This document shows positions 12,701-63,700 of a stretch of 64,000 bases of DNA, piece by piece (within the stretch, counting starts at the first letter, position 1; every line of letters starts with the position of its first letter). Both the position numbers and the translations under genes were made by a program. The stretch comes from Patiria pectinifera (Eukaryota > Echinodermata > Asteroidea > Valvatida > Asterinidae). The notes beneath the pieces are model-generated. The model was not told the origin of the DNA. It made no database searches and saw only the letters and a program-made list of their open reading frames with translations. The stretch lies in NCBI GenBank assembly GCA_029964075.1, contig CM057147.1, forward strand, positions 26,495,513 through 26,559,512, in the 5' to 3' direction.

Positions 12701-15700
12701 CTTTCCGTCCTCAGGAGTTGGTTTTTTTGTTCAAAATGGTCCTCTGTACATGTAGTAGGTCTGTGTGCTTAGTCTTTGGGAGAGTGTTATACTACAGGGA
12801 CAAAGGAAAACACAAAGCATTGTCCTCGGGAGTACAGTAAAACAAGAGTGTATACACATGTGGTGCGTCCCCTCCACTGGGCTCTCAAAAGTGTTAAAAA
12901 AGCACACTCCCTTGTTCAGCTGCAAAGCACAAAAACACATTTGTTATTAAAGCAAAAATGACCGATTGGCTCGGTTGATTTTTGCTTCAACAAAAAAGGC
13001 TGCTGCTCTTCTGCATATCAAAAATGTGGGCAGACTTACCTTGTATGGTGTGACGTATTTGCCTTCAGGCGTGACATCACTGGCCCTGTTTAAGAGGTTG
13101 ACTCTCGGAATACGATAATTGTCAAAAGACACAAAGCTGTAAGCAGAAACAAACACGTTCAAAGGATAGCAACCTAGTAATAGTTATTGCCAACATTAGG
13201 CCAAAACTAAAAACTTCATGCACATTACTATGTAAAAACCTATTGAAAGGCACATTACGACACATCCTAAAAATCTAAATGAAACCTGATGTCTTTGAAA
13301 ATAGTGTCAGAAAAGTTTCTCATCGACCCTCTAACTAAAAGGAATTCCCGCTTCGAATCGAGTTCCCGTCACTGGAGATTTTTTGCACGCCAAACAAGGC
13401 AAAGCCCAGTGTGAAAACACACCATGGTCACCTCACACACAAAACGGGCGCTGGGATCCAATGGGGCAGTAATTCTCCGTTTTAATCTTAAATGTACAAA
13501 GGATCATTTGCTTTGTCTGGATTGTTTTTGTTTGAAGCAAGATAATTACTTATAATCTTAAGTAGGGGGCCATAAAAACTAACCCGCTAAACTAAGCCCA
13601 GTGGCTACTCTACATTTTGAGAAAATATATTTTGGTTTTGTAACTGGATTTCACTGCTAATGCACATTAAAAGAAGAGTTTGCCAGCGGGCACACTTTTT
13701 TCAAAACCAAATTCAGTGATTGTTTTCTTGTGAACAATACCATTTCGGGTGGAATAACTTCACAGGATATATAGGCCCAGCCCTACCTTCACTTGACTTT
13801 TCCATGTTTGTTTCCTTGGAATATCAACTTTCCATGACTCCTCGTCAGACCAAATTTCTGGAATTGATCGGCGATGTGTTTTTTTTTCAAGCATGGATTG
13901 TACAGACAAGGTGGGTACTATTTCGCTTTTTTGAGTCCTCATATATCTTGGCGTCCTCCATCATTTGCCTTGGCCCCCTGCCCCCCATCATTTGGAGTCG
14001 AGTTGCCACGAAAATTTGAGGCCGTGTGGCAGAAGAGGGCGCTGTTGTAGCTACTGCGAAAAATTTTGGAGAAAAGAAATATTGACGCGCATGATCAAAA
14101 TCGAGGCGCGCACTGACCAGAGATCGACTTTTTTGGGAGCTTAAAATAACAAATATTCCATGATTTCTCCACAAAATTCCATGACAGCTTTCAATTCCAC
14201 GATTTTCCATGACTGTACAAGCCCTGACAAAATGCACGAAAATCCTTACATTCACATGCAGCATTAAGGGTATCATCATGTCTATAACCAATGATTTACC
14301 AGTGACGATTAACCCTGGTCCTCACCCATTATCCAGTCCGTTCTGGCCCATCTTCTTGCCCATGTCGCCCACCACCAGTCCGGGGTAGCTCCGGAGTGTT
14401 TTGGGATCCCTCAGGGGTACGACGAAGGGGTGCAGTCCGTGACACAGCCCGTCGGGGGTGTAGAGCTGGGCGTACATCAAGGCATGGGTGGCGGTTTTAC
14501 CCATCAGTCCCACCCAGCATTTGGTGGCTTCAACGTCGGGCGTATTGATGACAAATTCCTGGTCAAGAAACAACGGGTAGAGGTACGGTAGAAACTAAAT
14601 TTTGGAACAAAAGGGACTGGCCTTGATTAAAACAGCAGTTTTAAGTGTGTTTCGAAATCCAGAGCATTTCAGAGCCCTTTGTAGATTATTGGGCCACATT
14701 TTTATCATTGTGGCCATTCCGTAATCTTAACCTAATCCTCCAGGGTATTTTTGCTAGAAATCCTGCTATTATAGCAGCAACATGCAAAACTTGTGTAAGT
14801 GACAACCTGTCCAGTGTAGCAAGATCCATCAGGCCAAAAGTCTCAAGGCCAAAATGCATCAGCGTATGTATATGCGGTCACCGAATGCAGCAGGATACAA
14901 TTGTGTTCAATGAAACTAGCTCTCATTGTTTCAGAGCTGGCCATCCATGCACTGGTGCTGGTAGCTGAATGCATCAAAGTGCACCAGGCTTTTACACCTG
15001 ATGCACTTTGCTGGCACGGTTCTAGGGTTACTAATAAATGAATAATTTTTGCTGGACACAAAGAACCACCCTATAGTCCTCCTGATTGACTGAGTCACTG
15101 ACAATAGAGAATGTAATAATCTAATGATTGCATGTCCAACTTGGAAAATTTTCTACACCTTTATGGAACATCAACAAAATTTGCAACCAAACAATTGCAT
15201 CCTCTTCCGAGTGATCCCCGTTTGCTATTTCCCGGGATTGCAGCATTGCTAATGTTGCTAGCATCGTGACTTATAAGGGCGTGATCCCTCTCTGTATGGC
15301 ATGTATACAGGTTATGGCTTCTGATTGGTCTCCTTCAACAAAGATATTGACAAATTAGGGAACCGCCAATAAAGGGCTGGATAGCTCAGTTGGTAGAGCA
15401 CCGGAACGGCAATCCGGAGGTCACAGGTTCAAGCCAGGCTCCAGTCCATTTCTGTGTTCAACTTCAAAATAAATCAACAAAAAACAGAGTTGCTTTAGTA
15501 GTCTTTTGAGTGATGAGATGGACTCAGGGAATCGAAACTCTGTCTTTACGTTTGCTATATGTTTCCGTTCGTTATTTTTGCCAAATACAAAAATAGAAGA
15601 AGCACTTGTGCTCGGCCTGGAAGACTGAATAACACGTCACTAACCTGAGATTTGGGATCATATGTCGCGGTGGTTCTCACTGCTTTGGTGTTGCTGCCGT

Positions 15701-27700: not shown

Positions 27701-30700
27701 GATGCCAGAAGGTTCGAATGTCATCACGTTGTGTTGAACCTTTCCCAGTAAAGCCTGAAACAAAGTTGAAGGAGCTTAATGCTGAAGATGAAAAACCACC
27801 TCAAGTGCGAGTTAGGTAGACTGTTAAAGGCTAAACTGGAGATACAGTTACATGTAAGGTCTGCTGTAGCCTAACATCTAAGTACCACAGCAAATAGATC
27901 TGTTTTGCTGTAAAGGAATGTTGTAACAACGGTGATTCTTATAAAGGAACCAAAGGAGCTGTGAAAATCCAAAGGTCTGTAGCGAAACCCTGTAGGTATG
28001 CAGAACTCCAACTTCCGATGATCCATGCATGGGTACTGTACAAGGACATTAGTATCCCAATGATTGATGGAAGCAGCAAACCAACCGTCTCAAGAGACTG
28101 GAGAGAAGTAGAAAGCATTTCCAACTGAATTCCTTGTTGCATGTCGAGTCTGATAAAGGGCCGCCATTCGTCAGACTGCTACTGACTGAGAAGATTGAAG
28201 TAAGCCGAAACCTGATCCAGTTGGAAGTATCCTGGTCTAGATCATTCCTTAAAGAAAGATAACCTTCTGTAAAGCAACAAACAAGTGCATGTTGAGGCAG
28301 AAGCTCGTGGTCAGGGATAACTGAGGTAGACAAGAATTCTGAACAATGCTTCGAAGAAGTGTCTGACAACCCCTTTATGTATGAAGTTACATAAACCACA
28401 TCTGGCCGGATTGTAGGACAAATACTTGTTCTAAAGACTCGAAGCAGTGGGGATATGTCGAGATTCTGCTGTAAGCCAAGGATGAAGAGAAGGCCGGTCT
28501 ACAAACTCCTAGCTGAATCATGCTGGTTTGAGACCCGTTGGAGACCGACGTAGAGGATGTACATGCATGCCAAGCACCTATGAGGATTAACTTATCTCAA
28601 AGTATGGAATCCTGCACCATAAAGTCTTGCTATATAACCTGATGTTATGCCAAGAAACATTCATTCAAGACAAGAATGCCAAATAGCCAGAATTAGCAAT
28701 AAGTCCAAAAGCAATTCCACCAATCTAGACAATAAAGCAGAATGATAAAATCTCCAATAAAACTGTATCAGTTAAGGGAGATATCATGGCAACTTGCAAG
28801 GGCACCAGACAAAGAAGAGTAAGAGTAAGAATCCTTGGTCTATTGTAAAATCAACGAACCATCCCAACAGGTTGATGAATATATAAACAGGCCAGCTAAG
28901 CAAGATATTCAATGATAGAATATCAAGAATCCGAATAAGGAATCCTCCTACACAACAAACCCCAACCCAATCGTATATATTGGGAAGAAGCAGGGAAAGA
29001 ACGCTGCATCCAGACGCCAGTAACGTTTGAGTACCACTACCATTTTTTTTAAAATCTTGTAATGATATCAAACTAAGTGGCATCAGGTTGCATCCTACTA
29101 AAAGTACTATCCAAAGGTAGCTTGAGCGTAGAAACATGTGAGTCTGTAATAAGAACATGCTCAAAAGGACCAACCCACTGTTATAGGATGGAGAAACTGA
29201 AAGCTTACCGATAGCCGGTCGAGTGCTGCTAATGGAAAGGCGGCAAGGCTGTAGTGTTATCATGCATTTTCACAGAATAAATAACATTATAAGTGAAAAC
29301 CCCGAAGGTAATCTCGAACATGGGAGACGACTCCAAAGAATGAGTAATCACAATCCAATCGGCCCGAATGTCCGAAGTCAATCCTCCGTCTGAGTCCAAT
29401 TGAAAACGCAAGTTGGAACCGCAAACATTCTATCAATGGGAAAAGTGGGCTGTGAAGGCTTAGATTTACGAGTACCAGAATCTCTGCGATATGAAGGTCG
29501 AGTAGATTCGACTGGGGAATGGGTTGGAAACTGAAGGATCTTACCCACTTCCGTCATCGTAAGATTAGCCCGTTGGACATTGGAGCATGGAGGAAAAATT
29601 CCTCCATGATTGGAGAGACTATCTTCATCCACTGTCTAGCCCGAGGAAAAGAAGACCTTGAAGGAGATCTAGAATGCGAGTGTCGGCTTCGATGACCAGA
29701 ATCCGACCGTGAGTAATCACGATCACGACGAGAAGAACGATGTCGGCGCCGATGTCGATCGTCGGAGTCCGAACGGGACCGCGCACGAGACCGGGAACGG
29801 CGCCGTGAATCGCGGCGTTCTCTCCCCGCCCGGCTGGTGTGTTCACCGAAGCGTTGCGGAGAACGGAGTCTTTGTCCTGTGAAAGGTACACCATGATCTT
29901 GTGGAGAATGTGAAGAATTACCCTGATAAGATGTGTAATGGTGTGAAAATCCCATCGGAAAGGTCTGGGGATAAACCCGCGGGTCGTAGGCTGGAACACT
30001 GAGTGGATACGGAGTGCGAGTATTGTGGTCGAAGTGACGAGGATCGTTCGGGAAAAAGACCACATGTGAGGCTCCGAATGATGAAGAAAATCTCGCCGAG
30101 ATTCGCTTGTAAAACTAGGTTGAGAATACGAACCCGTAGTATGGCTGACTGAAGATGATGGTGGTGGTGGTGGTGGTGCCCCAAGCCTCTGTGACCCGGC
30201 GGGGCTGGTCGGATTACCGAGGAACCTTTGGGTTTCGAACGCCAAGCCCCGCCGTCCCGCCTGCGGCCTGCACATGCGAGTCGACCTGTTGTTCCGAAGC
30301 GTGCACGTGCTCTTGCAGACTGCCGTAAGAATGCGGGATTTGTTGGGGAGTGGCCGTAATTCTCATTGGAGAATTCTTTGACCATGTTGACCCCCGGAGA
30401 AATTCCAACTGCCGAACCCGGGAGATTGGACCCAGTCGTACCAGAGGAATTATCACGCTTGGATTGAGTAGAGGGTGACTTTCCAGTAGAACGGCTTGAG
30501 ACAGTTTTCTTTTTGTTTTGGCGGAGTCCGCCATTTTGTAATCACAGCGAGAACAGCTAAAAATTGTACGTCTTCACGCTACGCGTCGCTGAAAAAACTA
30601 GGACGAGCTATTATGTTACAGGGTCCTTTGTGGGTGTGGGGCATGCAGTGGACAATGAGGGTGTGGCTTGGGCGCTATTCTTTTCAGCGAATGTTTGTGC

Positions 30701-41914: not shown

Positions 41915-44900
41915 GTATGTGACACACGCTAGAACTGGGATAAACCATAGAAAAACGATTTCAAATCGTTCAATTTAACGCCGTAAAAATTATGCACACG
42001 TTGGAGGATCGCGATCAGTGATCAGCATGTGCATGAGTCTGGCGAGCGCAATTTGAGTCCCCCACGCAAGTTTAAACTTGCGCGCGCAGGTTTAAACTTG
42101 CGCGAGGGACTCCCGAAGCACGCAAACTACACTGCGCCATTTTAATTTGCGTGCGCAAGTTTAAACTTGCGCAAAGGCAATCGCAACCTTTTTTTGCGGG
42201 CGGGTTTTTCATGGATGAAGATTTTTTTTTGGCAGTGTATATTTTGCCGGAGACGGCAAACCTTTAGTAAACGTTAGTTTGCCGGATATGCACTGAACAT
42301 GCGCAGTTACTGTTTTTTTGTACTTAAACATTTTCCGGTGACAAGTTTTAGTCTGGCTCCATGCCAAAATTATCGTTGTTACCTCGTATTCACAAGATGG
42401 GATTCAGACCATTTTATATTTTCGGACTTTATTTCCCTTTTAAAAAAAATCCTCCAGAGCCACAAATCTGAAAAAAAAAAAATGTAAAACTCTGCAAAAA
42501 ATGTTTGAGACATGTTAAAATAATAAAAGAAGAATATTCTTATTTATTTGGGGATGAGAAAAAAAACCTTACAAATGTGGTGCGGTCGGAATCGAACGCG
42601 AGTCATCCCGCTTACTAGAGCCTTTGCTTAACCATTACACCAATCGTGCTACACAACTTTTGGTGGGAATTTAATACATCTTATAATTCAGCCCTATTTT
42701 AAAGAGTACAGCGCCCTCTGTTGATATGGATTGCCGCCGGCAAACCTTTAGTAATCGTTAGTTTGCCGTCATTACCTCCGGCAAAATACCCACTATCTTT
42801 TTTTTCTTCAAAACACGAGTACATGTAGCTTGAGTAACTCCAGCTGACATGTTTCATATTCATTCATGCTTATCGCATTAGAGTTGGAGTTGCTCAAGCT
42901 AGATCCGAATATGAATTTTCATTTTTATGTGACACTGTGTGCCAGGTAATCAGAGCCACCATATATAACTTCAAAAGTTATATAGCAGAAATTTGCTCGT
43001 CATCAGTCATTTGAATTTTCATCAGCAATGTCAGATGGGAACGAGTACTATTTCCAGCCACGTGATTGTGTCCTGGTCCAGTCCCACTAAAGCCTTTGAA
43101 AAAGGCGATAAGTTGGGTCCAAGTTACTCGGACTACATGGTACTCTGCAATCATATTCTAGACATTTATCATTATTTTATAGACTAGGCCTAGGCTAGGC
43201 CCAATTAGAAATAACACTATTAAATGTTAGGCCCAAGTTCATGTCTGTTTAAAAACAAATGACAAAGATCAAGCCTTTGTCTCAGAAATAAGACGGCGGG
43301 CAAACTACTTCCAGAAGTGTAGGGCTCTACTGTACGTACAATATACATGTTCATGTAGAGTCAGATCTTTTTGTCAAAAGCTTGTCTTAAAGGGAATATA
43401 CAACATTTGCAAACACCGAAAAATAAAACTACCAAGTTTTTATGAAATACCTTACTAGGATGTTGGTAAATAACAGTCTAAAGCATCCTGTAAACTTATG
43501 GCACCTGGTGTGAAGTCATTTTCAAGAAAATGGTATTTTTGTAAAAATTTCCAGCGGTGGTCGGCCGACCACCGTTGGAAAAACCTAACTATTTTTCAAC
43601 TACTGCTCCAAGTTCACCATTAATTCAGTCAAAATTGTGTTTGCTATTGGTTACATGTTCATGAACGGGTGCAGGCCAGCCAGACTGGTACCCTTACCTT
43701 ACAATTTTCCGGCATCTCTAACTTGATCCATTTTATATTAAGTGGAGTCAGGGAACCAGACTACTTGAACAGTTTTGTTTTTCTTGGTTTTTCCAGCATT
43801 TACGAACACAAAACTTCAAACATGTCAGTGTAACAATATTTGATCTATTATACTACCCCCTCAAATAGTTCATTTCTGAAAATTACAGCAAAAGCCAATG
43901 ATGTATATTCCCTTTAACTTGACTTGTTCATTTTTTTTTTTAACAGACATGTCGTCGGATGAAGTGCGAAGTCCAATGTACGCTGCCTTGGCAGTAGCTT
44001 TCATTGCTGTGGTTATCGGCCTCCCGGTATGGTGGCTGTCAACAACTACGTACAGAGCGAGTCTTCCTTATCAAGAAATACAGGAGCTGGCAACAGCACA
44101 GGTGAACAAAATGTTCTAGAGGCTGTGTCTAAAAATGCAGTTTCAAGAATCGTCGTCACATTGGTCTTCAAACATCACAAGCGATAAAACCTCAGTTTAA
44201 AAGTTAAAAACATTCAACAAAGTCCTCTTGAAGGCCCATCTTTTTAAAAAAGTGGATTTTATAAATCATATTGTTTTCCTGAGCAGGCTTGTTAAGATAT
44301 TGTGTACTACAGTTGTTAATAGTTGTTAAAACAAGTGGATTTTATAAATCATATTGTTTGCCTGAGCAGGCTTATTAAGATATTGTGTACTACAGTTGTT
44401 AACAGTTGTTGAAACAAGTATTCTGTGTCATTTTGTTTGTTGTTCCAAACAGTCAGAATACACAATAAATTGCTTTTTTTACGAAACGGGTTTTAGGGTC
44501 ATTGCGTTTAAATAGTGATATTGTTTGGTTTGAACGGATTGAGCAATTTCAGTAATTTTCTCATCTAATAATAGCTTATGAAATTGGCTTTCCATTCATT
44601 ATTTTGTTTGGTGCTACATTTTTTTTTTAGATATGAAATATATTTTTGGGGTTTGGGTTCCGCTTTTTTGACTCCTCTGTCCAGGCTTACAATGCAGGAT
44701 TATGATGTTCCATGCCATGATATGAAGTCTTGCATGTATTTCAGTGCCAAAAAAAATACTTCTAAATTCTTTCTGTTGCAGACAAACTGCCTCATCCCAG
44801 TCGCAATCGTTTCCTGCCTCAGCGAGGAAGAAAGAACAAATCTTGACAACTTTCAAGCAGAGCTGAATGCCTTATTGCAGTCAGGTAAGCATGTGCTTCA

Positions 44901-47900
44901 AGCCCTTGGAAGGATGTTCAGTTCCTGACTGGGGGGGTTGGCTGAAGGGTCATATTCCCCAACCTGAAATAGACCGATTCCAACCCATGATGTTTAATCC
45001 TAACCCTGCTGAATCCAACAGGGTCCAACTATGTCATACACCCGATGGAGCCTGTTGGATTGAGCAGTTAACCCCTGGTGTACATTCCTGATGCAAAATG
45101 TTGGATTCAGCAGGCAACTGAACCGCATTATAACGCCAAGTTGGACTCTGTTGGATTCAGCAGACAACTGAAAATGAGGCACAGTGGATTGAACAGGAAA
45201 GTCCGGTTGGACTCTGTTGGATTTAGCAGGGTAGTCCTGAGGAAGTACTAGGGGGTTAGGGTCAATCACAGCTGTATTGAGGTATAACAACAAGTCAACG
45301 CGCGCAGTTTCATATGATGGGAACCCCTCCGGAACATTGGAACATACATTTCAAAAAAAAATTTAAAAAAATTTGAGTTGCAACCTAAAATGTGTTTGGT
45401 CACATGTTTGAATATTCTACTGAGTTTTGAGTCTCTTTTCATTGTCAAGAAGAGAAATACGGAAGTATTGAGTTATGTACGAAGGTTCAATGAATTTTTA
45501 GAATTGATGTGAATTGAGGAGGTTTTGGGGGAAAAAAAACATTGAAATACAAATGGAGTAAAAACTTTTACTTTTGAATTGAGTTTTTTTCCATTTGTTT
45601 TGTTTACAACCATTTTGTAACAGATGAAAGATCAATACTGAGCATTCAGTACACCATCGACTGGCAAACATGTTCCCTGCAAGAGCAAAAGATTCTTGAA
45701 ACAAGCACATCTTTGGCAGGTATGTCAGGATTAGCCCAGTTACACAATGCAACTACTCATCTTTATGTGAATGTTTTCGATCCTTCAAACTCCATCAGAA
45801 GGTTTTTGGTAGATTTTGTAGGATTAGAGAGAAAGAGCATAGCTTGTTCACATGCGGTATGATCCGTAAAATCATTTGAGTTATGAAAATGTTAGATTTT
45901 GAGAGAGTGTTCACGACATTTTTTTTTTAATAAAAAAGATGTATCAAGCTGTGAATTTTTATCAACTCAAAGTGTTTGATGCAGAGAAGATGAAAGATTG
46001 ATTAGTATTTCTTGTGGTACGAAAACCTACCAATAAAAATTTTAACCATGTGTCGGTTTTGCAGATCGCTTCACACAAAAAGATTAGGTTAACCCTTTTG
46101 TCACTGAAGCGCCCGAAACCGTCCTGCCTATTACTCCCTGTGGCGCCCAAAACTGCCCAAGCACTCTATGGTTTTATTGATTCTACAGTGAATAAACACA
46201 ATGTAATACAATGTAGTACAGGTGCGAATAGTCAATTTAAAGTTGCATGTCAATTTTTTTCGACAGAACTTGACCAAAGCCTCAGCGCGTCCAAAGACAT
46301 CCCGCACGGCCAGTTCACGATCTACCTCGTTTCTCAGGGATACAAGCTCCTCCAATCAGCTGACAGCTTCGTAGGGACGGGGCGGGTTGCTGTAGCAACA
46401 GTTAAAGGTGAGACTTGAAGGTGATTCCTTGACTGCATTTCCTCTACCGTCTTCATCCCAAAATCTCATTGCGTGGTTGTATACAGGGTGAGTAAAAAAA
46501 ACGAAACCCAAATGTTGGGACCATTGTTTTAGTTGGGACCCTGTATTGTATGAAATTTCAGATTCCAGTGTGGCGTCCCTGATCCGGACAAGATTGGTCA
46601 ACGAGGGCGCTATGACAAGAGCCTATCTGAATGCGGCAGGGGCACGACTTGATAAGGTGAGACCGTCAAAATCAGTCCACTGATGCAGAGAGTATGAGAT
46701 CTATCCACACTCCTGGCTAACCATTACTTGTTGATTTTTTTTTAGTTGATGTTACGTTTTGTTGATTGCTGTAATGTGTTGATACCAGACTGATGCAGAC
46801 AGTATGAGATCTTTGCCATCCACACAGGGAAAGGAATTATCCATTGGCTAGCTGTACTTTTTTACTATGTTAGTTGACTAGTTGATGTCAGGTCTGTTGA
46901 TTGCTGTAATGTGTTGATACCAGACTGATGCAGACAGTATGAGATCTTCGCCATCCACACAGGGAAAGGAAGTATCCATTGGCTAGCTGTACTTTTTTAC
47001 TATGTTAGTTGACTAGTTGATTTCAGGTTTGTTGATTGCTGTAATGTGTTGATATCAGGCTGATGGGATCTTTTCGATCTACATAGGGAAAGGAATGTAT
47101 CTGTTGGGTAGCCATTAGTTGATCAGCTAAATAGTTGATATTACAGTTTGTTTTTGCTGAAATATGTTGATACCAGGCTGAGATACCAGTGTGAGATCTC
47201 TGTTATCCACACAGGGAATAAATTATCCGTTGGCTACCCATTAATTGATCAGCCGATTAGTAGATTAGTTGATTGCATGTTTCTTTTTTTTTAATTGCTC
47301 AATTTTGTTGTCACCAGGCTGATGCAGACAATATGAGACCTCTACTATCCACACAGGGCAAGAAATTGTCCGCTGGCCAGCCATTAGTCGATCAGCTGAT
47401 TAGTTGATCTTGATTGCACGTTTTGTTGATTGTTCTGTTTTGTTGCCACCATGCTGATGCAGACAGTATGAGATCTTTGCTATCCACACAGGGCAAGGAA
47501 TTATCCATTGGCTAGCCATTAGTTGATTCAGCCAATTAGTTGATTAGTTGATTGCATGTTTTGTTGATTGTAGTTTTTTTTGTTGACACCAGGCTGATGC
47601 AGGCAGTATGAGATCTTTGCTATCCACACAGGGCAAGGAATTATCCATTGGCTAACCATTAGTTGATTTGGCCAATTTGCTGATTTAGTTGATTGCATGT
47701 TTTGTTGATTATTCTATTTTGTTGCCACCAGGCTGATGCAGACAGTATGAGATCTTTGCTATCCACACAGGGCAAGGAATTATCCATTGGCTAGCCATTA
47801 GTTGATTTGGCCAATTTGTTGATTAGTTGATTGCATGTTTTGTTGATTGCACCATTTTGTTGACACCAGGCTGATGCAGACAGTATGAGACCTCTACTAT

Positions 47901-50900
47901 CCACACAGGGCAAGAAATTATCTGCTGGCCAGCCATTAGTTGATCAGCTGATTAGTTGATCTTGATTGCACATTTTGTTGATTGTAGTCTATTTTGTTGA
48001 CACCAGGCTGATGCAGACAGTATGAGATCTCTGCTATCCACACCGGGCTATGAGCTATCCTTCAGTCTTCTCAACCCGCAGCCAGACACGTACAACGCTC
48101 AGTGGAACATACAGGAAGCGGTACAAGGTGGGTCTATGAACATCAGACTTTGACTGTAATTTAATGCTTTTCCGAATATCCTAATACTCAAGCATCATCT
48201 AAATATGGATTAATATTATTTTTTTTTAACTTCACACCAATTAAAATTGAAAATACAATCTATAAATTCTTGTAAAGCTTGGAATTTGCTCGATTTTTGT
48301 TAGTTACCATTAGCATGTCTGACCAAAGTATATTCTCAAGTCAATGGAAGTCTTTTGAGGGGCGAGACAATTTATTCCACAGTTAAAGGAACTTCTATTG
48401 GAAAATCCAATGTGGACCATTTCAAGGGAGCACCAAAGCTTTGTTGCACTGTGAGTAGATTTTATAACATGGTACATAGTGTTTTGGCAATTTAAAATTG
48501 CTTTTATCGTTCACCCAATTGCAGCCTACCTGAGTCCCTTCCTCCACAAACTCTCGGAGTTTGCCGAGTTCACCGTCAATTCCCAGGTACTGTACTTCAC
48601 TGGTCTCTCCATCAAACCCAAGCACAACGAGCCTGACGACAGCTACCGTGTATCCCAGAATGCACTGCCACTCGTCATTAACCCAGTAGAGGCCAAACTA
48701 GGTAAGAATTCAATACATTTATTATTAAGGTTATAAATGTGTGCTGAGTTAGTATTAATCACTCTGTTTAAGACCGCGTAGAGTCTGGGTGCTGATAATT
48801 ACCCGAGCCGAAGGCGAGGGTAATTATCAGCACCCAGACTCAAGACTCTTTAACACAGTGATAAATACCGACCGAGCACACATTTATTCCCATTCATAAA
48901 TACCTTTTCCGTCAAAAAATTTAACAATTTTGGTCAAATAGTTCAACAAGTTTACTTTACCATTGCTGGGTCTGGGTCAATGCCACAATCATTAACTAAT
49001 GATGAAATATGTATAATTTCTTTAATTCATTTTTCAGGGTCCCATGTTTCGACCAATCCAAGTTTGAATTTTCTTCTGTACATCCCACGTTCACGCCACC
49101 TGCCTCTCTACATTACTGACAACACAGGTATGTTGAGCACTTCAATTTCAAAAATAAAATACAGAACAAGTAAGGCCGAGCTTGAATGACTTGGTTATGA
49201 CTTGAAATTACACACATGTCAAGTGGAAGCAGCTTCTGTGATCTTTTGTGATCAACAATTCGGGCCATTCACAGTGCAGTACGCCACCAAGAGTTTGTCC
49301 TGAAGAGTCCATTTTTCAAGTTAACAGTCGACAAAACATGGCCTATTTGAACAAGTGTCAGTAGACAACTTGAGCTAATTTGTTAAAGATTTGGGCACAG
49401 CGTTCTGCCGCCTTACAAAAAAACACCATATTGATAAACTAACAATTTCAAATGTCACGCGCTGCGAATTTGTCGACCATCTCCCACAATGCACTGGAAA
49501 AAATGAACTCTCCGTGGCAAACTCTTGGTGGCGCACTGCATTGTGAATCGCCCGAATTCTGCAAAAATGGCATCCACCCCTTCTTTGTGTTGTATTTCTT
49601 TTTTATTTGTGTACCCCCCCCCCCTTTCCCCCAGGAGAGCCAGTGGTCACCAATGCATTTCTGAGCCCGCGCTGGGGCGGTGTCATGATCCAGAACGTCC
49701 CCAAACCCAGCGAGAATGACACCTTGCCATTAACTGTGGAGATCGACACGCGGCGAGCCATGGAGGTCTTCCTGGCACAGCTCAGATTGCTGATTGGAAT
49801 CCCGCACCAGGTGGGTATGGGCTCTGTGAGCCAACGAAAGAGGGCGCTCTTTTACCTAGCAACGACGTCCCATGGGCGGGACATTTAGCTGGTTGACGCG
49901 CATCGTTCCTTGTGTGTGACGCACGTACGCTAGGGGATTTGTACTATGTACACGCAGTGGTACATGCATACATGGTACGGCCGCGGGTCACGACAAAATT
50001 GGAGTCAGGCAAGATGGCGTCGTTCGGTCACCCCCAACTATGCTTTCTTTGCCGGTGAGGGGGTACCTGTGAACGGAGCGGATATGGCTCAACTGAAAAG
50101 ATTAGCGTTTGAATTTTCTTGGGGTTTTAATGAGGTGATTCTAATGCATTGTAAATCAAAGTTTGTAGTCATACATGGTTCTCTGTAAACAAAAAAAAAT
50201 ACGTCGGTGAAGGGCAAAGCCCAATATTGAATTGAAATGCAGATAGCATTTAGTTACATTTGTAAACACGGCATGCAACAGGGAATTTAGAAAAAACGAG
50301 GAAATTCCAAACCACACAAGACTTTGTACAGTGTTTTTTCAATTTGTAATGGCATTCCTGAGAAATAAAAACGAGGAAATCGGCGGATCCGAGGAAAAGT
50401 TGCATGCCTGTAAACATTAATAGTTTCAGATCCCACATCCTTGATATATCATGGTCATTCATGACGTACACTATTAGTACATTTCCACAATTCAGCCTTC
50501 CATCTTCCACAATCTTTAAATCAAGTTATTTTATAATAATCATGGTAAAAATTATGTTAAATTACATAAAATTAAGCATGTTTCAATTTTCCTTTACTTC
50601 AATACCTAAAGGAATTTGTATCTCCAAAATATGTACAAATAAAAGTAAATACTCTTTTCTTTCAGGTTGTTCAGGACAAAAACATCATTTTGGCATCACC
50701 TGATAAAAGTGGAATTACTGATTGGGTAAGATTTATTTGTTGTTTGATTTATTTGTTGTTGTCAGATATTATTGCAACACTTTTCAAAAAAATTAATAAA
50801 AAATCCTGGTTTCCCCAGAAATTATTTGTTACTTCTGTAAATCTACAGGGTATTATTGAGAAAAATACTTTTTTTTGTCAAAGTGAATGTGACATGGGCG

Positions 50901-52669
50901 ATATTGGGATTACTGAAAAATGTGCATGGCAATGGACGCTTATGCTATCCAGTCAGTTTATTATATTGCATTAGGAACAAAAGGCCGTGGCTGAACGTCC
51001 TATCCGGAACTTTTGGCTTGGTATGGGATACAACTACATAAGAACAAGCTGACATAAAATTAACCATATCTCTAGGAACCCATTTCTGAAACGTCCTAAC
51101 TGTCTGAATTTATAAAGTCCGGTAACACTCTTCTTTGCAGGAGTATGACGTGCTGTTGAGAAGTAGAACAATTGAGAACCTGGCCACGGCCAGCTCCACC
51201 CTCGTGTCTTTGGCTCAGCTGTTGAATCAGATTGGGAATATCGTCATACGTGATGATATAGCTGATCAGGTAAGTAGATGAGCTAATTTCATAATATAAG
51301 TTATTTCCCATATATCTCTTATTTAGTAACAGTCAGGGGCGTTGCCAGATGGATTGGAATTGGGGGTCGATAACAAATTTGCCGACAGACCCTCTATGCT
51401 GAAAGGTAGCCAAGTTTTATTTTTAATTAATTTTTTTGCTGTCAGCCAGCCGCTGCAAAATCAAAGAGCACTTGAAAAGGAGGGGGGAGGGGAGCAGGAC
51501 GCCAGTTTACTGTCAGGACACTGTCCACAGCAGATACTATTGGACAGTCAGGTGGCGCTCTTTGTTTCAACGTGTATGGTGACGGACACAAATGTTACCA
51601 AAAAGGGAGGTGGTGGGACAATGACACCCCCACCCCAAGCAGTACTTGGTACTTGGTTTGTTCTTCTCCTAAGGACTTCCACAAGGGAGTATAACTAGGC
51701 CAGAAACACCGGGGCAAACCGCTTCTCTTAGCGATAAGTGTTACTGGGTTCTTTTACGTGCATTAGGCCCTGTACAACACATGGGACCTCCGGCTTATGT
51801 TCCATCCGAAGGACAAAGCAATAATGGTTAAGTGCCTTGCTTAAGGGCACAAGTGTCCGGGCCCGTGCTCAAACCCACGTCACTGTTGCCTCTGAAACAC
51901 CAGAGCATGAGTCCGGTGTTCTTAACCGCTAGGCCATGACACTCCACTGAGAAATAGTTTCTTGTCAAAATAACTCCATGTGAATGTACCTAATTTGACA
52001 CTTGTTAATGTTGTGATCATGCCCCATTTTGCAGGTTTATCAGGCAGTCTCAGCCATCAAGCAGGGCCACGCCTACCTCCAGGGAGGGAACCTCTACAGA
52101 GCCTTCCATGACAGCAAGAGGGCCATCGCTGCATCCGAGAAAGCATTCTTTGATCCGTCCCTCTTAGAACTTCTTTACTTCCCCGATGACCAAAAGTAAG
52201 TTCTAATTGAGCAAGTAGCCTAATACGAATCAGGGCTGAGATATATCTTAAAATTAAAAAGGCCAGATTTTGAAAAACCGGTTCCATGCAGATTTATGGA
52301 CTCCTTGCACAAGTACTTCCTCAATGCCTATAAAGAGTAGGATAGGGAAAGGCGCCAACAAACATTTGGACGATGGGCAAATTTTTTGAGCAACTGGTTA
52401 TCTTGAAAATGCAAAAGGCGACAGACTGACTGTTGAGTGCTTTGTCTCCCTATGGATCATTTAAGTGAATGTTGTTTTATAATTATGAGGCAACTAGCCC
52501 ATAATAAATTGTATTTACTTTCTGCATTTGTTTTGTAATGATTGTTATTTCGTCCCACAGATTTGCCATCTACATACCGTTATTCCTACCCATCGGCATT
52601 CCCGTGTTTAGCTCATTCTACAAAGCTTTGAAGTGGATGAAAACCAAGACGAAAGCGAAACAAGATTGA
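41875..52669 (+). CDS. PIGS: GPI transamidase subunit PIG-S, complete, 14 coding exons
   Basis: PIG-S is an ER membrane subunit of the GPI transamidase, which swaps a protein's C-terminal signal for a preassembled GPI anchor. Exons: 41875-41914, 43947-44101, 44782-44884, 45624-45719, 46267-46407, 46562-46656, 48007-48127, 48525-48701, 49038-49127, 49635-49810, 50666-50725, 51141-51269, 52035-52195, 52561-52669. Every junction is GT-AG and the phases chain to 550 residues; human PIGS is about 555. Landmarks are an N-terminal membrane segment ([20 protein letters not shown]), [111 protein letters not shown], and a C-terminal membrane helix before a lysine-rich tail. The fold places most of the protein in the lumen. 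Intron 6 is unusual (see 46657-48006). Confidence 0.96.
42060..42175. repeat. Clustered palindromes around GTTTAAAC
   Basis: GCAAGTTTAAACTTGC and close variants occur three times, two nearly adjacent (42067-42101) and one at 42153-42172. Each is self-complementary. They lie in PIGS intron 1, probably as remnants of a foldback element. Confidence 0.7.
42239..42787. mobile_element. MITE with TATTTTGCCGGAG ends, carrying a tRNA-like insert
   Basis: The ends are inverted (ATTTTGCCGGAG and CTCCGGCAAAAT). Each also carries an internal hairpin (GGCAAACCTTTAGTAA... CGTTAGTTTGCC) at 42252-42284 and 42737-42768. TA at both borders fits a Tc1/mariner-like target. Inside, 42579-42660 is tRNA-like on the minus strand. 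It lies in PIGS intron 1. Confidence 0.6.
42579..42660 (-). tRNA. tRNA-like sequence (SINE head or tRNA pseudogene)
   Basis: The minus strand shows GGTGTAATGGTTAAGCA, an A box, and GTTCGATTCC, a B box, about 40 nt apart. The acceptor ends do not pair well and the T stem is weak. A functional tRNA is unlikely. Confidence 0.45.
43387..43917 (-). mobile_element. TTAA-flanked MITE (family 2), inverted copy next to PIGS exon 2
   Basis: It opens TTAAAGGGAATATACAACAT and closes with GATGTATATTCCCTTTAA, with TTAA on both borders. The interior is the reverse complement of 7766-8289. Its right border is only about 30 nt from the exon-2 acceptor, so the branch point may lie in or just beyond the MITE. 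Confidence 0.75.
44254..44418 (+). repeat. Tandem duplication, two units of about 80 bp
   Basis: AGTGGATTTTATAAATCATA through GTACTACAGTTGTTAA is repeated once with few changes. It lies in PIGS intron 2. Confidence 0.8.
45004..45233. mobile_element. Small foldback element
   Basis: CTGCTGAATCCAACAGGGTC at the left is mirrored by GTTGGACTCTGTTGGATTTA at the right. Internal copies of TTGGATTCAGCAG lie between. About 230 bp in PIGS intron 3; the TSD was not resolved. Confidence 0.55.
46657..48006 (+). repeat. PIGS intron 6: tandem array of exon-7 start plus acceptor
   Basis: About ten diverged units of roughly 135-140 bp fill the intron. Most contain TTTTGTTGACACCAG then a close copy of GCTGATGCAGACAGTATGAG, which are the 3' splice site and first bases of true exon 7 (48007). 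Homology to the exon runs about 54 nt and then changes to intron-like TTGGCTAGCCATTAGTTGAT. Unit starts are near 46680, 46788, 46923, 47060, 47178, 47321, 47453, 47594, 47737 and 47870. In the exon-7 frame the best units run into an in-frame TAG after about 20 codons. Confidence 0.88.
48007..48127 (+). CDS. PIGS: PIGS exon 7, the genuine exon beyond the array
   Basis: [20 protein letters not shown] continues into [18 protein letters not shown], matching the conserved PIGS lumenal segment. Only this unit has CCGGGCTATGAG and an open frame to a GT donor (CAAG|GTGGGT). Confidence 0.93.
48729..48889. mobile_element. Palindromic foldback MITE
   Basis: A perfect 24-bp stem beginning GAGTCTGGGTGCTGATAATT surrounds a 14-nt loop near 48815. 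Imperfect arms extend outward to AATGTGTGCT and AGCACACATT. It lies in PIGS intron 8. Confidence 0.75.
49833..50090 (+). repeat. Dispersed repeat, copy 2
   Basis: Inverted relative to 6440-6740; shares GTCCCATGGGCGGGACATTT and GACGCACGTACG-type stretches. It lies in PIGS intron 10. Confidence 0.6.
51700..51945 (-). mobile_element. tRNA-derived SINE, third type
   Basis: The minus-strand head reads TCATGGCCTAGCGGTTAAGA with a degenerate B box GGGTTTGAGC. Then come GCCCTTAAGCAAGGCACTTA and a body with GTACAGGGCCTAATGCACGT. This is a leucine-tRNA-like head with the widespread AAGGCACTTA tail. It lies in PIGS intron 12. Confidence 0.7.
52561..52669 (+). CDS. PIGS: PIGS last exon (C-terminal membrane helix)
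   Basis: [20 protein letters not shown] forms a hydrophobic helix followed by a lysine-rich tail and TGA. The acceptor is TCCCACAG and the split lysine codon joins phase 2. Confidence 0.95.
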
Positions 52670-53154: not shown

Positions 53155-56100
53155 TGAAACATGTTTTTGAAAACTAAAGCTCTTCGAAGTTTATTTTTTG
53201 GTTATAAAATATTTTTCCCTTAGTTGTACTTAACTTTCCACTATGCAAAGCCTCAGATCACGTTTGCTCAGGGTGTGTAACAAAAATCCAAATATTTCAC
53301 ACTATTCCCACAGTCCGGGCTTCATGCAGCAAAAGGGTTATCAATGGAATGGTGTAGTGTGAATTTGGACTTTTATGAAATGTGGACTCGATTGTACTGC
53401 ACATGTCTAAGTAAAGATGGCTAGGTCAGTGACAGGTCGCGTGTGAGGGTTAAAGTCAAAATAAGGTCAACTCAACGAGACCAGATTTCATAGAATTCCA
53501 AATGTAATATGCCACTGGTTCATAAGTTGGGAACACATGCAATTGGGGGGGGGGGGGGGGCAACTGTGGGTGCTTGGCACCCCCAACGTTTAGGATGGGG
53601 GTGCTGGAATACATACTAAAGTATCCGTACCCCCTGGCCAAAAAATGTGTTCCAGTAGGCTTGAACACATGGTGTTCCCTCTGAAATTGAAGTTTGGTTT
53701 TACAGTGAGGAAATAATGGGGTATTTATGATTTCTAGTTACTTTGTTGGATAGACATAATATTGAGTAGAAATCCGGTAGAAATGATGTGTTAGGGTTAA
53801 GGTCGATTCGTACACGCCGCGAAAGTAAACTTAGCCTAACGTTTCTGACATCTAAGCAAGTGTTCGTGCTGCGAGTCCACTAGTGCTGAGCACATATAAA
53901 CTTTGCTGAGGTATGTCCTGACTGAATGCTGCATGACGGCGGATTAGCTTTGATGATTACAGGAAGTATGAACTGGTCTTGAAGGAGGGCTACAAAATAA
54001 TAGGCACATTTGCAATACATTTTTGGAAGCGAACTAAGTTACTTTTTATTGCATTGAGAATGTTAATCAAGTTTTTTTTTAAATATTTAAGAATGTCTGA
54101 AATTATAGCAGTTTCAAAAGATATGCAATAGTATGTTTTCTTTGCACTGATTTTCTTCAGAAGTTTTAGAATCAATGATTAAAATTTGTAATACAATCTG
54201 ATAAGTACAACTAGTCTCGAATACTAGTTAGCAAAACGCACTGTAAATATTGAAATAAATAATTAAATACGTTGATAGAAATTGGAATGAAACGTACAGC
54301 CCTCTTATAAGAATTCGCAAATAAGATCAAGTCATTGTTATAAATAATTTTCTCACTGCATATTAATTCAAACTACACGATGTCACACATTCACACACTC
54401 CTTGGAAGAACTACTGTAGTAATTATACACGTGCATTTTAGGTGCATGATAAAGTGTCGTACTCAAATTGTTCCCTTTTCTTTTCAAAAACTTGAAAGAA
54501 TTACCACAACTGGACACCAATTTTGTGCGACCTTTTAAACGTTCTTCTATTCTAGCCCAGTCAATTGTATAAAATATACATATGCAATTATGTGGCCTTG
54601 CATTCATAAAAAATGTTCGACCTAACTGATACAAGAGCCTATTTATAAGAAATACTAAAATCGTTGTCTTTTCTTTTCAAAAGCTTCAAAGATTTACCAC
54701 AATTGGACACCAATTTTGTGCGACCTTTTAAACGTTCTTTCTACTCTAGCCCAGTCGATGGTAAAAAATCTACATGCAATAATGTGACCTTGCACTCATA
54801 AAAATGTTAGGCCTAACTGATAAAAGTGCCTTTTTATAAGAAATACTAAAATCGTTCTCTTTTCTTTTCAAAAGCTTAAAAGATTTACCACAATTGGACA
54901 CCAATTTTGTGCGACCTTCTAATCGTTCTTTCTACTCTAGCCTAGTCAATGGTAAGAAATCTACATGCAATAATGTGGCCTTGCATTCATAAAAATGTTG
55001 GGCCTAACTGTTAAAAACTGACCAAACGTATTACAGTCACTACAGTGGCATCAGCCAACAGTTTTAATGACAGAACCTGATTATTTTTTTAAGGTTTAAA
55101 ATGTTTAATCCATGTAATCGTCTTTTATACCATGCAACAGCTTTTCATGGATTGGTCTTGAGCTTCTTGTATAAAAACTACAATCATAAAAATCTAAATA
55201 TCATTTATTAATGCCAAAAATAAAGTTATTTCAAAATTTCAAATGTAATTTTGAATGGTATGTGTCAACAATTATGTATAATTTATTTTGGTGTGATTAA
55301 CTAGTGCTAATATCTTATAACTACATGTAACACTAAATTTTGCAGATTTGCAATGTTTCTAAATTCAGAAAAAGTGCTAAATCTATACGAGAAATGGGTT
55401 ATTATGACAATTGCAAAAAAAAGAGTTATCACTCGTTACTCTGTGTACTAAAAATAATTCTTTTTGCTAAAACACAGTAAAAGTTATTTAACATTGTGTC
55501 ATTAAACAGCATTGGCAGCTAAGTAAAAACAAATGGCAGCTTAAACCATTAAAAGTATTTAAAATTGCACCCTGTACACACACTTCACACAATAGAGACC
55601 ATTAGAAATGATGCGTGTGCGCGATACGTATCCGACTCGAAAAAACAAAAGGTGCTTGTAAAAAATCACCATTTTGCATGGTTGTTTCATCTTTCAGGGA
55701 ATTCTGCCCCCAAGATCTCGGCCATCGAGTGACGAAAAATGTTGAAACTCGGTACATGCATAGAGCAACTCATCATGAACATACCCAAGAAACTTCATGA
55801 CTATAGGTCAAAGGGTTTTGGAATTATGGCTAATTAATTATTCATATGTACGAATGGCAATTCTGCTCTGTGTACACGACGTATATGGGAAAATTATGCG
55901 CCGCCGCACGGCAACCCATGGTCAGATTTTTATTTTTTGGGGGGGGGGGAGGCAAGGCCAGCATCCCCTGGATCCCCCTTTGGGTACGTACCCCGCACCC
56001 ACACCACTCCTAATGGTCCCTATTAACTTACATACATGTCTTTTAAGTGCTCTGTGATCTGAAAAAAATATTATAATGCTTTCAAAAAAAAGTGAAAGAC

Positions 56101-60700: not shown

Positions 60701-63700
60701 TAAGGATTCTGTGCTTACAGGCTTAGCGCAGAATTTTTCTGCTAGCGTTGTTATTCGCAAAATGGTGATCGTAAGCGCGGAATTTTGTGGTCCGCAGGGC
60801 CATGAATTTGGGCCCTGGTCTCTAACCTGAAGAGTATCCATTATATGTGCCGTAAACTTTAAGTTGCTAGAATGTGTTTGGGGAAATTTGCTGAACTGAC
60901 GTAGGAAATTTGCATCAAATTAAAAGCTTTTAGGCTGTGGCCTGCTTGTTTCAGTGCAGAACAGGGATTGGCATATTATACATTGTACATGATGAACAAA
61001 TCTTGCATGTCAATTGCATGTTATATTAGACATGGAAATTGTGGGTTTTGACCATAGAGCTATATTAAATTACTAGAGCGCTAACTCCCCATTCTTGCGC
61101 GCGGAGACGTTTTGAAGCCATCCCGGGCGCAGACATATTGAATTCATGTGCGCGTTTGAAGAACATAATAAAATTAGATGGATTGAATTTTGAAAGTGTA
61201 CTCTACATGCAACGCGCAAGTAGAACATACGCAAACAACTTAAGCGCGTCATGACAGTTCAAAAAACGTCACGGCGAAAAGCATCTGCAGCGAATACGCG
61301 CACGTGTTGTGCTGCTTGCGCAGAGCAAAATGACACGCTCATTTGCTGATCGTGCGTTTCGGTTTTGGGCGTATCGGCTTCGATAACGCACCGGTATGGA
61401 GTACAAACGCAGATATGCAAATAGCCGTACAAAATCCATACAAAATTTCTAGTTCTCCATAGGTTTGTGTACAAACATGGATGCGCCCATCAGGCATTAC
61501 TTTGTACATCGAGTTAGCGCTCTAGTAATTTAATATAGCTCTATGGTTTTGACGGTCATGTACAAGAACAAATTTGTCTAATTGTTTTTATGCAGACATT
61601 CAGTGGAGCATTGCTAATTGCTAATTGTCGAATAAGCAAGGGAGCTGTGGGCCTACACTTTGGACACCATTTTATAAAGAGCCCCGAACACCATAAGCCA
61701 ACATACAAAAGTACATCAATACATACCATCTACACAGCCATGCACTTTCACAAAGAATTGAAATGTTGACTAAAATGGATCGATCAAAAGCCGGAACCAG
61801 GTGATGGTGCATAAATTGGAGTTTTTGCAAGAAGGTGCTACATGTTTTACTAATAACAGCATAGAATAACAGCATGTCCTACACATGGTGGTCCAGAGAT
61901 AATAAAGCGAAAACTTCTGATTTCACTACATGTGGCTACAGGCTGCAAAAGCATGACTGGTACTAAGACTACACTACGCATGTGTGTTGTATCGTCACAC
62001 GGAAGGTCCATATCTCACATAAAAAGCTAAAAAGCTGTTAAAGCTAGTACCAGGCATTCAAGATGAAAGCAGCAAATTTCAAGAACATTCCGAACACCTT
62101 CTAAAACCCTCCAACCTTGAAATTTGAACTCTCACCAGTTTTAAAGATAGACATTTTTTAGTCAGCCCCAACACCGTAAAACAGCGCCACCAAGACAAGA
62201 GAAAGAGAAAGACTACACAAGTGACAAATCCACACACCACCCAAGCCAAGCATCTTACAAGCTCTTGATCAATTCTCTTCCCATGGGAATCTCCAGGAAT
62301 TCCTCCTCGAAATCAAGGAACGGCAGGAGGCCAACGTAGAAGGCCCCCAGCATTTTAAACGCCGTCTTCATGCTCATAATCGTCGGGATTTGCGGCGCCT
62401 GTACATTTTCGTTTCCCAGTAAGTTTTATTTAAAACAAAAAAAAAGGAAAAACAATTAATGAGAATTAATAAATTAACATGACTCACACTGTTTACCATT
62501 TGCTTGCCACCTTCCTTTACCTTGTGCTATTGACCTGTTTTGATGCCACAAAAGGACTTTTCACACTAGACAAATCTTGGGGTTGACGCAGGGTTGACGC
62601 AGGGCCGGGTTAAAAACATGCGGCGTTTCACGATCACACTTTTAACCCTGTGCCAACCCTGCATCAACCCAGCGCCAACCCTGTGCCAACCCTGCGCCAA
62701 CCCTGCGCCAACCCTGTGCCAACCCTGCGTCAACCCAGCGCCAACCCTGCGCCAACCCAGCGCCAACCCTGCGCCAACCCTGCGCCAACCCTGCGTCAAC
62801 CCTGCGCCGACCCTGTGCCAACCCAGCGTCAACCATGCGCCGACCCTGTGCCAACCCTGCGTCAACCCTGCGCCGACCCTGTGCCAACCCAGCGCCAACC
62901 CTGCGCCAACCTTATGCCAACCCAGCGCCAACCCTGTGCCAACCCTGCGTCAACCCTGCGTCGACCCTGCGCCGACCCTGTGCCAACCCTGCGCCAACCC
63001 TGCGCCGATCCTGTGCCAACCCTACGTCAACCCAGCGCCAACCCTGCGCCGACCCTGTGTCAACCCAGCGCCAATCCTGTGCCAACCCAGCGCCAACCCT
63101 GCGTCAACCCAGCGCCAACCCAGCGCCAACCCTGCGTCAACCCAGCGCCAACCCTGCGTCAACCCTGCGTCAACCCTGCGTCAACCCTGCGCCGACCCTG
63201 TGCCAACCCTGTGTCAACCCAGCGCCAACCCTGTGCCAACCCTGATATTGACTTCACCCCGGGTTGAACTCAACCCTGCTCCAGACCAGGGTTGAGATTT
63301 TCAACCCGGATCAAAACTCTCGCCAGGGTTCACAACAGTAGCAATGGAGCAAAATAAGCTTGGTTTACATAAAACAATGTGAGGTTTAAAAATCAAAAAC
63401 TCAACCCGGGGTGGCATTGAGTTTGAACAGGGTTGAGTTTAACCCCGGTTGATGAGAGGCTCTAGCGTGAAAAGGCCTTCTATGTGTGGTGAAATTACAC
63501 ACCGACTGTGGAGTTAGTACACTTGATATAAACGCAAACCTGTGATGTATCCCATCATGCAATTACATGTTCACCATGACAACCACGGACAGAATGAGGT
63601 GAACGGAAAATCTACTGAACAATCTTACAAATTGAATTTGATGACCGAATCTAAAGGGATTTCAACAAAGGTCTCTTTGAGAGGCCAGAAGGGCAGGAGT

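Follow-up and report, generated by a model that had tools for sequence, protein, structure and literature searches.

A minisatellite spanning an intron-exon boundary fills an intron of PIGS in the sea star Patiria pectinifera

We analyzed a 64,000-nucleotide stretch of the genome of the sea star Patiria pectinifera (assembly GCA_029964075.1, contig CM057147.1, positions 26,495,513 to 26,559,512 of the forward strand), called the window here, and in particular an intron of the gene PIGS within it that consists almost entirely of tandem copies of its own 3′ end and of the start of the next exon. The conceptual coding sequence (CDS) of PIGS has 13 coding exons, all of its introns are GT-AG, and the predicted protein of 536 amino acids matched the Pfam PIG-S family (E 1.2e-142) and the PIGS chain of the solved human-type structure 7wld (7wld_S; E 4.7e-126). 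A search of the 613.5-Mb genome with this protein gave 13 matches for the 13 coding exons, all at this locus; the gene is single copy, and the search gave no second PIGS copy or haplotig for comparison. The same search did not list the repeated exon-like copies described below and is therefore no guide to the number of similar arrays in the rest of the genome. The intron lies between coding exons 5 and 6 counted from the ATG; a first-pass annotation, made from the sequence alone, had called these exons 6 and 7, a numbering that would require one upstream noncoding exon. The open reading frame (ORF) at 48001-48150, which holds authentic coding exon 6, matched Pfam PIG-S by itself (E 5.1e-7), and the first 54 nucleotides (nt) of this exon are the exon part of the repeat.

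Tandem Repeats Finder (TRF) reported an array at 46742-48048 with a period of 135 and 9.7 copies. We also aligned a query made of the last 22 nt of the intron and 59 nt of the exon against the whole window. At a score of at least 40 there were ten matches on the plus strand, the authentic site and nine upstream of it, and none on the minus strand. The nine upstream matches scored 48 to 120, and the best scores elsewhere in the window were 35 on the plus strand and 28 on the minus strand. Two hundred Markov resamples of the intron reached at most 35, and the same alignment in the other 11 PIGS coding introns gave scores of 12 to 22, so chance similarity is excluded. These results confirm an array where the first-pass annotation had seen one, although it starts at about 46680, 23 nt into the intron, with a truncated unit, and not at 46657. 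The annotation's count of about ten units, most with an acceptor and about 54 nt of exon, was borne out as one truncated unit followed by nine full units of 118 to 141 bp and then the authentic exon start at 48007 (Table 1). The degenerate unit at 47059 fell below the score cut and was recognized by reading and alignment. Each unit begins with an exon head of about 54 nt and continues with an intron tail, in which motifs resembling TTGAT or TTAAT are followed by the next acceptor. The acceptor sequence said to be repeated, GTTGACACCAG, is exact at three places (47582, 47859, and the authentic 47996). Variants of it stand at the remaining seven sites, and the variant just upstream of 47453 has lost its AG, ending in CAT instead of CAG.

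We searched the genome with a two-unit query, using a search that skips very common words, and obtained five matches, all within the PIGS array. A dispersed repeat as the source of the unit was rejected, since this query matched the PIGS locus alone. A first genome query had given 72 matches, of which six were at the PIGS locus and the rest fell on a segment near 46480-46535, outside the array, in the PIGS intron that precedes it. Copies of this 54- to 60-bp segment occur at dozens of genomic sites, many of them paired on opposite strands about 300 to 500 bp apart, and the segment probably represents the terminal inverted repeat of a nonautonomous transposon of small size. Bindin gave a match in this genome at E 1.0e-33, which marks an echinoderm, since bindin is not known outside this phylum; a COX1 search had no match. 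The B18 region of bindin is described as identical between sea urchins and sea stars (PMC4063459). Matches located at 2.8 Mb or farther along 18 contigs with numbers from C1 to C22 would fit the 22 chromosomes of sea stars (PMC10015122, PMC12961294).

Table 1. Features of the PIGS locus and of the array (window coordinates; a slash marks a splice junction; scores are from the approximate splice matrix described in the text)
Feature	Position	Strand	Details
PIGS CDS	43949..52669	+	Conceptual CDS supported by Pfam, 7wld_S, and genome matches; ATG at 43949
Coding exon 5 (first-pass exon 6)	46562..46656	+	Donor AAG/GTGAGA at 46657, score 10.5
Intron after coding exon 5	46657..48006	+	1350 nt, 98% array
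Unit 0	46680..46788	+	Truncated exon-like remnant (46680-46719) and spacer
Unit 1	46789..46923	+	135 bp, head then spacer; AG kept, score 2.7; donor-like CAG/GTCTGT at 46892 (6.1)
Unit 2	46924..47058	+	135 bp; AG kept, score 2.7; donor-like CAG/GTTTGT at 47027 (5.1)
Unit 3	47059..47176	+	118 bp, degenerate 44-nt exon-like head; AG kept, score 3.7
Unit 4	47177..47317	+	141 bp; AG kept, score 2.6
Unit 5	47318..47452	+	135 bp; AG kept, score 9.1, above authentic
Unit 6	47453..47592	+	140 bp; acceptor lost (CCAT)
Unit 7	47593..47731	+	139 bp; AG kept, score 8.1, above authentic
Unit 8	47732..47869	+	138 bp; AG kept, score 10.0, highest among units
Unit 9	47870..48006	+	137 bp; AG kept, score 6.8; spacer holds branch-point-like TTGAT and the authentic acceptor
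Authentic coding exon 6 (first-pass exon 7)	48007..48127	+	Donor AAG/GTGGGT at 48128

We considered whether an assembly error had produced the array or a large part of it. Repeats of this type are readily misassembled, and the Gb6 mirage, an array of similar layout, looked aberrantly assembled in the amphioxus draft (PMC3087553). However, the full PIGS units differ from each other by 4 to 30% and also by insertions and deletions, one unit is truncated and one degenerate, and the genome search placed the unit at a single locus. An assembler is an improbable source of differences of this size, and we consider an artifact highly improbable; the copy number given here is that of the assembly.

Minisatellites that lie across intron-exon boundaries have been described in amphioxus genes under the name "mirages" and are reported not to disturb splicing (PMC3087553). 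The layout of the PIGS array belongs to this already published kind and is not a new type of switch. Its tandem units span the boundary, and many of them, although not all, keep the splice signal, with the acceptor AG present in eight of the nine full units. The amphioxus BflGb6 mirage likewise repeats an intron's 3′ end in tandem together with the 5′ part of the next exon, with units of 150 to 160 bp that are 81 to 100% identical, versus 118 to 141 bp and 70 to 96% identity for the full units in PIGS; there too, the splice signal survives in many of the units without being present in all, and in both arrays the boundary of the cluster is excluded from homogenization (PMC3087553). Unlike BflGb6, a different gene in a different phylum that has six and three units in two amphioxus haplotypes, the PIGS array has nine full units and a remnant and fills the whole intron (PMC3087553). 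A mirage in PGBD5 has also been described, in a report that cites those of globin, Adh, and TnC (PMC3902484). The amphioxus Adh3, TnC, and PGBD5 mirages resemble the PIGS array as exon-intron-boundary repeats with mRNA reported to be undisturbed, and somatic instability is reported for the Adh3 mirage; these other genes in another phylum differ in unit size, which is 10 to 72 bp for Adh3 and 60 and 108 bp for PGBD5 (PMC3087553, PMC3902484). A human interferon-induced minisatellite (6-16, IFI6) reported in 1995 also repeats a splice site, but its multiple sites are donors, which by the title of that report are provided to the transcript.

Comparison of the units gave indications of their history. 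Units 1 and 2 were identical at 130 of 135 positions, and units 7 and 8 shared 130 of 139 alignment columns. The block that runs from unit 5 into the head of unit 6 was identical at 163 of 174 columns (94%) to the block that runs from unit 9 into the exon head, four units away. Near-identical blocks four units apart are the expected trace of unequal exchange or conversion, to which we attribute them. The exon head differed from the consensus of the units at six columns. Column 24 was split among the units; at columns 37, 42, 47, and 48 the base of the exon was found in none of the nine units, and at column 44 it was found in unit 4 alone. No such exon-versus-unit column was present among the first 37 (Fisher P = 0.0075 for four columns and 0.002 for five). 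The units therefore look descended from one founder that had already diverged from the exon, and the start of the exon looks homogenized with the array. Only toward the 3′ end of the exon head do columns distinguish the exon from the units, which is the pattern of concerted evolution with a partly excluded boundary that is seen in mirages. Purifying selection acting on the exon might contribute to this pattern.

From these comparisons we infer an order of events. A segment with about 80 nt from the end of the intron and about 54 nt from the exon that follows would have been duplicated in tandem, after which the upstream copy, now intronic, would have drifted. Amplification would have started from this drifted founder, and turnover of the array by unequal exchange or gene conversion may then have reached about 36 nt into the real exon. 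The best reading of the array is that it is neutral and driven by unequal exchange. The description in the first-pass annotation of a natural minisatellite in PIGS that carries exon sequence and 3′ splice signals holds, and there is turnover within the array.

We looked for constraint on the exon-like copies. Reading on from the acceptor position, all nine full units reached a stop at codon 6 to 30, as the annotation had expected for use of an upstream copy. Of 2576 AGs located within 43 kb of the start of the window, 81% reached a stop within 35 codons (median, 15), and because ordinary AGs behave alike, the early stops are no sign of design. The 22-residue reading that had been predicted for upstream copies was exact in two of the nine full units (47453 and 47732), the first of which is the unit without an AG, and the other seven units read variants of it. 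Of the 18 sites at each codon position, 10, 5, and 7 varied among the exon-like copies at the first, second, and third position, respectively; since all three vary, these copies show no sign of coding constraint. With 37 of 83 spacer columns invariant among the units, retention of the AG in eight of nine is not striking.

We scored splice sites with an approximate matrix of human frequencies and not with a trained tool, and small differences in these scores are not meaningful. The authentic acceptor scored 7.0, the fourth lowest of the 12 PIGS acceptors (0.4 to 16.7), which places it at the 96.6th percentile of the AGs in the window, where 5% of 3743 AGs reach 6.2. The matrix is not sharp, and an AG at 48082 inside the authentic exon scored 7.8. 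Every full unit has at least one branch-point-like TTGAT or TTAAT 24 to 46 nt upstream of its acceptor position. Donor-like sites in the array reached 6.1 (46892) and 5.1 (47027) versus 7.1 to 12.6 for the 12 PIGS donors, and the matrix scan found no donor-like site scoring above 5 in seven of the nine full units.

Two other arrangements of splice-like sequence were present in the units. The exon-like part of each full unit contains a second acceptor-like AG (nine sites, 46828-47909), 39 nt from the acceptor in units with a 54-nt head and scoring 6.2 in unit 3, at a place where the authentic exon has CCG; a site of this type in the real exon would delete 13 codons in frame. In addition, units 1 and 2 each have, in the spacer that follows the head, a combined acceptor-donor site (TCAG/GTCTGT at 46892 and TTCAG/GTTTGT at 47027) with the layout of a recursive splice site; both are weak on both sides (2.7 and 6.1 at 46892; 4.6 and 5.1 at 47027).

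The distances to the strong donor at 48128 are 121 nt from the authentic acceptor, 258 nt from that of unit 9, and 396 nt from that of unit 8. Exon definition is an established principle of splice site choice, and it favors the last copy because only this copy has a strong 5′ splice site within ordinary exon distance. We infer that exon definition would lead to normal use of the last copy, with the other copies removed inside the intron. By analogy, the known relatives of the same layout, which are reported to splice normally, also support silence, and the sequence makes it most likely that the array is spliced out silently. Occasional use of an upstream copy would lengthen the exon by 137 to 1218 nt, running to 48127, or, for units 1 and 2, might instead yield a 103-nt cassette with a weak donor. 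Such products would meet a stop within 30 codons and would probably be removed by nonsense-mediated decay, which would amount to leakage and not to dedicated control. A transcript with the lengthened exon would be a standard target, since the early stop has seven exon junctions behind it. The premature stop that the first-pass annotation had foreseen is thus present in every full unit, and the decay that it had also foreseen is what the position of the stop predicts.

To estimate how common minisatellites are in this genome, we ran TRF on a sample of 20 loci of 10 kb each from contigs C1, C2, C4, and C6 (200 kb). There were 107 rows, 19 of them with a period of at least 40, which we merged by hand into 16 arrays. 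These arrays made up 4.4% of the sampled bases, over half of this from a single array (locus L033). With minisatellites this frequent, it is not very surprising that one should lie across a splice site. ORFs that cross an array edge were present at 15 of the 16 arrays.

Taken as a whole, we consider it probable, with good confidence, that the array is a boundary-spanning minisatellite, or mirage, of PIGS that is neutral, turned over by exchange, and mostly silent through exon definition. Several results weigh against this. Three of the nine unit acceptors (9.1 at 47318, 8.1 at 47593, and 10.0 at 47732) outscored the authentic acceptor, as did the second AGs inside eight of the nine units (7.2 to 7.8), so silence is not guaranteed. 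Weak donor-like sites lie 103 nt past the acceptors of units 1 and 2 (6.1 and 5.1), and the decoy exon of human OGT also functions with weak 5′ splice sites (PMC12017769). A discrete cassette, as in a poison exon, is conceivable for these two units alone, with weak sites on both sides, but it is unlikely given that their acceptors are themselves weak (2.7); in-frame stops are present in all nine full units. The exon-like columns were more conserved among the units than the spacer (mean mismatch, 0.135 versus 0.227; P = 0.023), a possible hint of constraint, although the difference can also be explained by conversion from the exon or by a T-rich spacer that aligns poorly. Finally, when 48 ORFs crossing the edges of the sampled arrays were compared with Pfam at E 0.01, none matched whereas the PIGS control did; this test has little power, as Pfam frequently fails to detect short exons. 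The 48 ORFs gave no second mirage, and such arrays are therefore not shown to be routine in this genome.

The first-pass annotation had suggested that the array might regulate PIGS output. In such a decoy array, U2AF and U2 would be drawn to the extra acceptors, so that splicing is delayed or diverted, decay would remove the nonproductive forms, and the number of units or the supply of splicing factors would set the level of productive PIGS mRNA. The AG kept in eight of nine full units, the TTGAT or TTAAT motifs upstream in all nine, the three acceptors that score above the authentic one, and the weak donors at cassette distance in units 1 and 2 are what this proposal would expect. There are also human precedents. 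In intron 18 of human ABCA7, the donor of exon 18 is part of a 25-bp variable number tandem repeat (VNTR); transcripts can retain one unit, and longer or shorter alleles of the VNTR are associated with skipping of exon 19 and with reduced expression (PMC5954066). Like the PIGS array, this intronic minisatellite includes the splice site of its exon, and splicing at the next repeated site leaves one unit in the transcript with a frameshift. It differs from the PIGS array in having 25-bp units on the donor side; its length is polymorphic and associated with splicing and expression (PMC5954066). The decoy exon in a retained intron of OGT is similar in placing splice-site-like sequence inside an intron, where its inclusion would give nonsense-mediated decay, and it needs its weak 5′ splice sites (PMC12017769).

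The requirement of the OGT decoy for its 5′ splice sites (PMC12017769) also counts against a decoy role in PIGS. Seven of the nine units are without a donor-like site above 5, unlike the discrete OGT decoy exon, and the two that have such sites, both weak, have weak acceptors (2.7). Moreover, the retention of the AG is not striking and the early stops are ordinary. A regulatory decoy array is therefore an unlikely reading, and the suggested regulatory role is unsupported, given array donors that score at most 6.1 versus 7.1 to 12.6 for PIGS donors, variation at all codon positions, and early stops like those of other AGs. More doubtful still is a copy-number rheostat, in which unit number and the homogenization of near-complete 3′ splice sites, several of them rated above the real one, would set how much PIGS pre-mRNA is lost unproductively, so that individuals would differ in glycosylphosphatidylinositol (GPI)-anchoring capacity. 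Overall, the interpretation in the first-pass annotation is partly supported.

A model of intron gain through mirages has been proposed for amphioxus globins (PMC3087553), and by this model one unit of the PIGS array might be recruited as an alternative exon, making the array a new exon or intron in the making. The model was published for the same type of array (PMC3087553), and the PIGS units do hold an acceptor, a branch-point-like motif, and exon sequence. However, even weak donors are present in units 1 and 2 only, a 103-nt cassette would shift the frame, and all nine units reach a stop. We regard this as the least probable of the readings weighed here.

The window contains other features away from this intron. 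Its own arrays have five edge ORFs, two of which we scanned, the PIGS control and the ORF at 54386-54676. The latter is one of two at a minisatellite downstream of PIGS (54460-55016; 2.9 copies of 191-bp units) and gave no Pfam match. A further array at 62644-63244 has 54.6 copies of the 11-bp unit AACCCTGCGCC and is open in three plus-strand frames and one minus-strand frame that read as proline- or glycine-rich repeats; it is probably noncoding. ARAGORN identified a tRNA-Ala gene with anticodon GGC at 15374-15448, and Rfam gave a tRNA match at 15375-15447. On the minus strand at 29554-30541 there are overlapping open frames, one of them Arg-Ser rich like an SR-type splicing protein, with no Pfam match at E 0.01.

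In literature searches for such arrays in echinoderms, no report was seen among the titles and abstract openings covered. The PIGS array extends boundary-spanning minisatellites from cephalochordates to an echinoderm. It also offers a natural experiment, in that similar acceptors within one intron differ mainly in their distance to the donor, which allows us to ask how the spliceosome chooses among several near-equal 3′ splice sites, and it bears on the ways in which arrays of this kind make introns longer and change the codons at the start of an exon.

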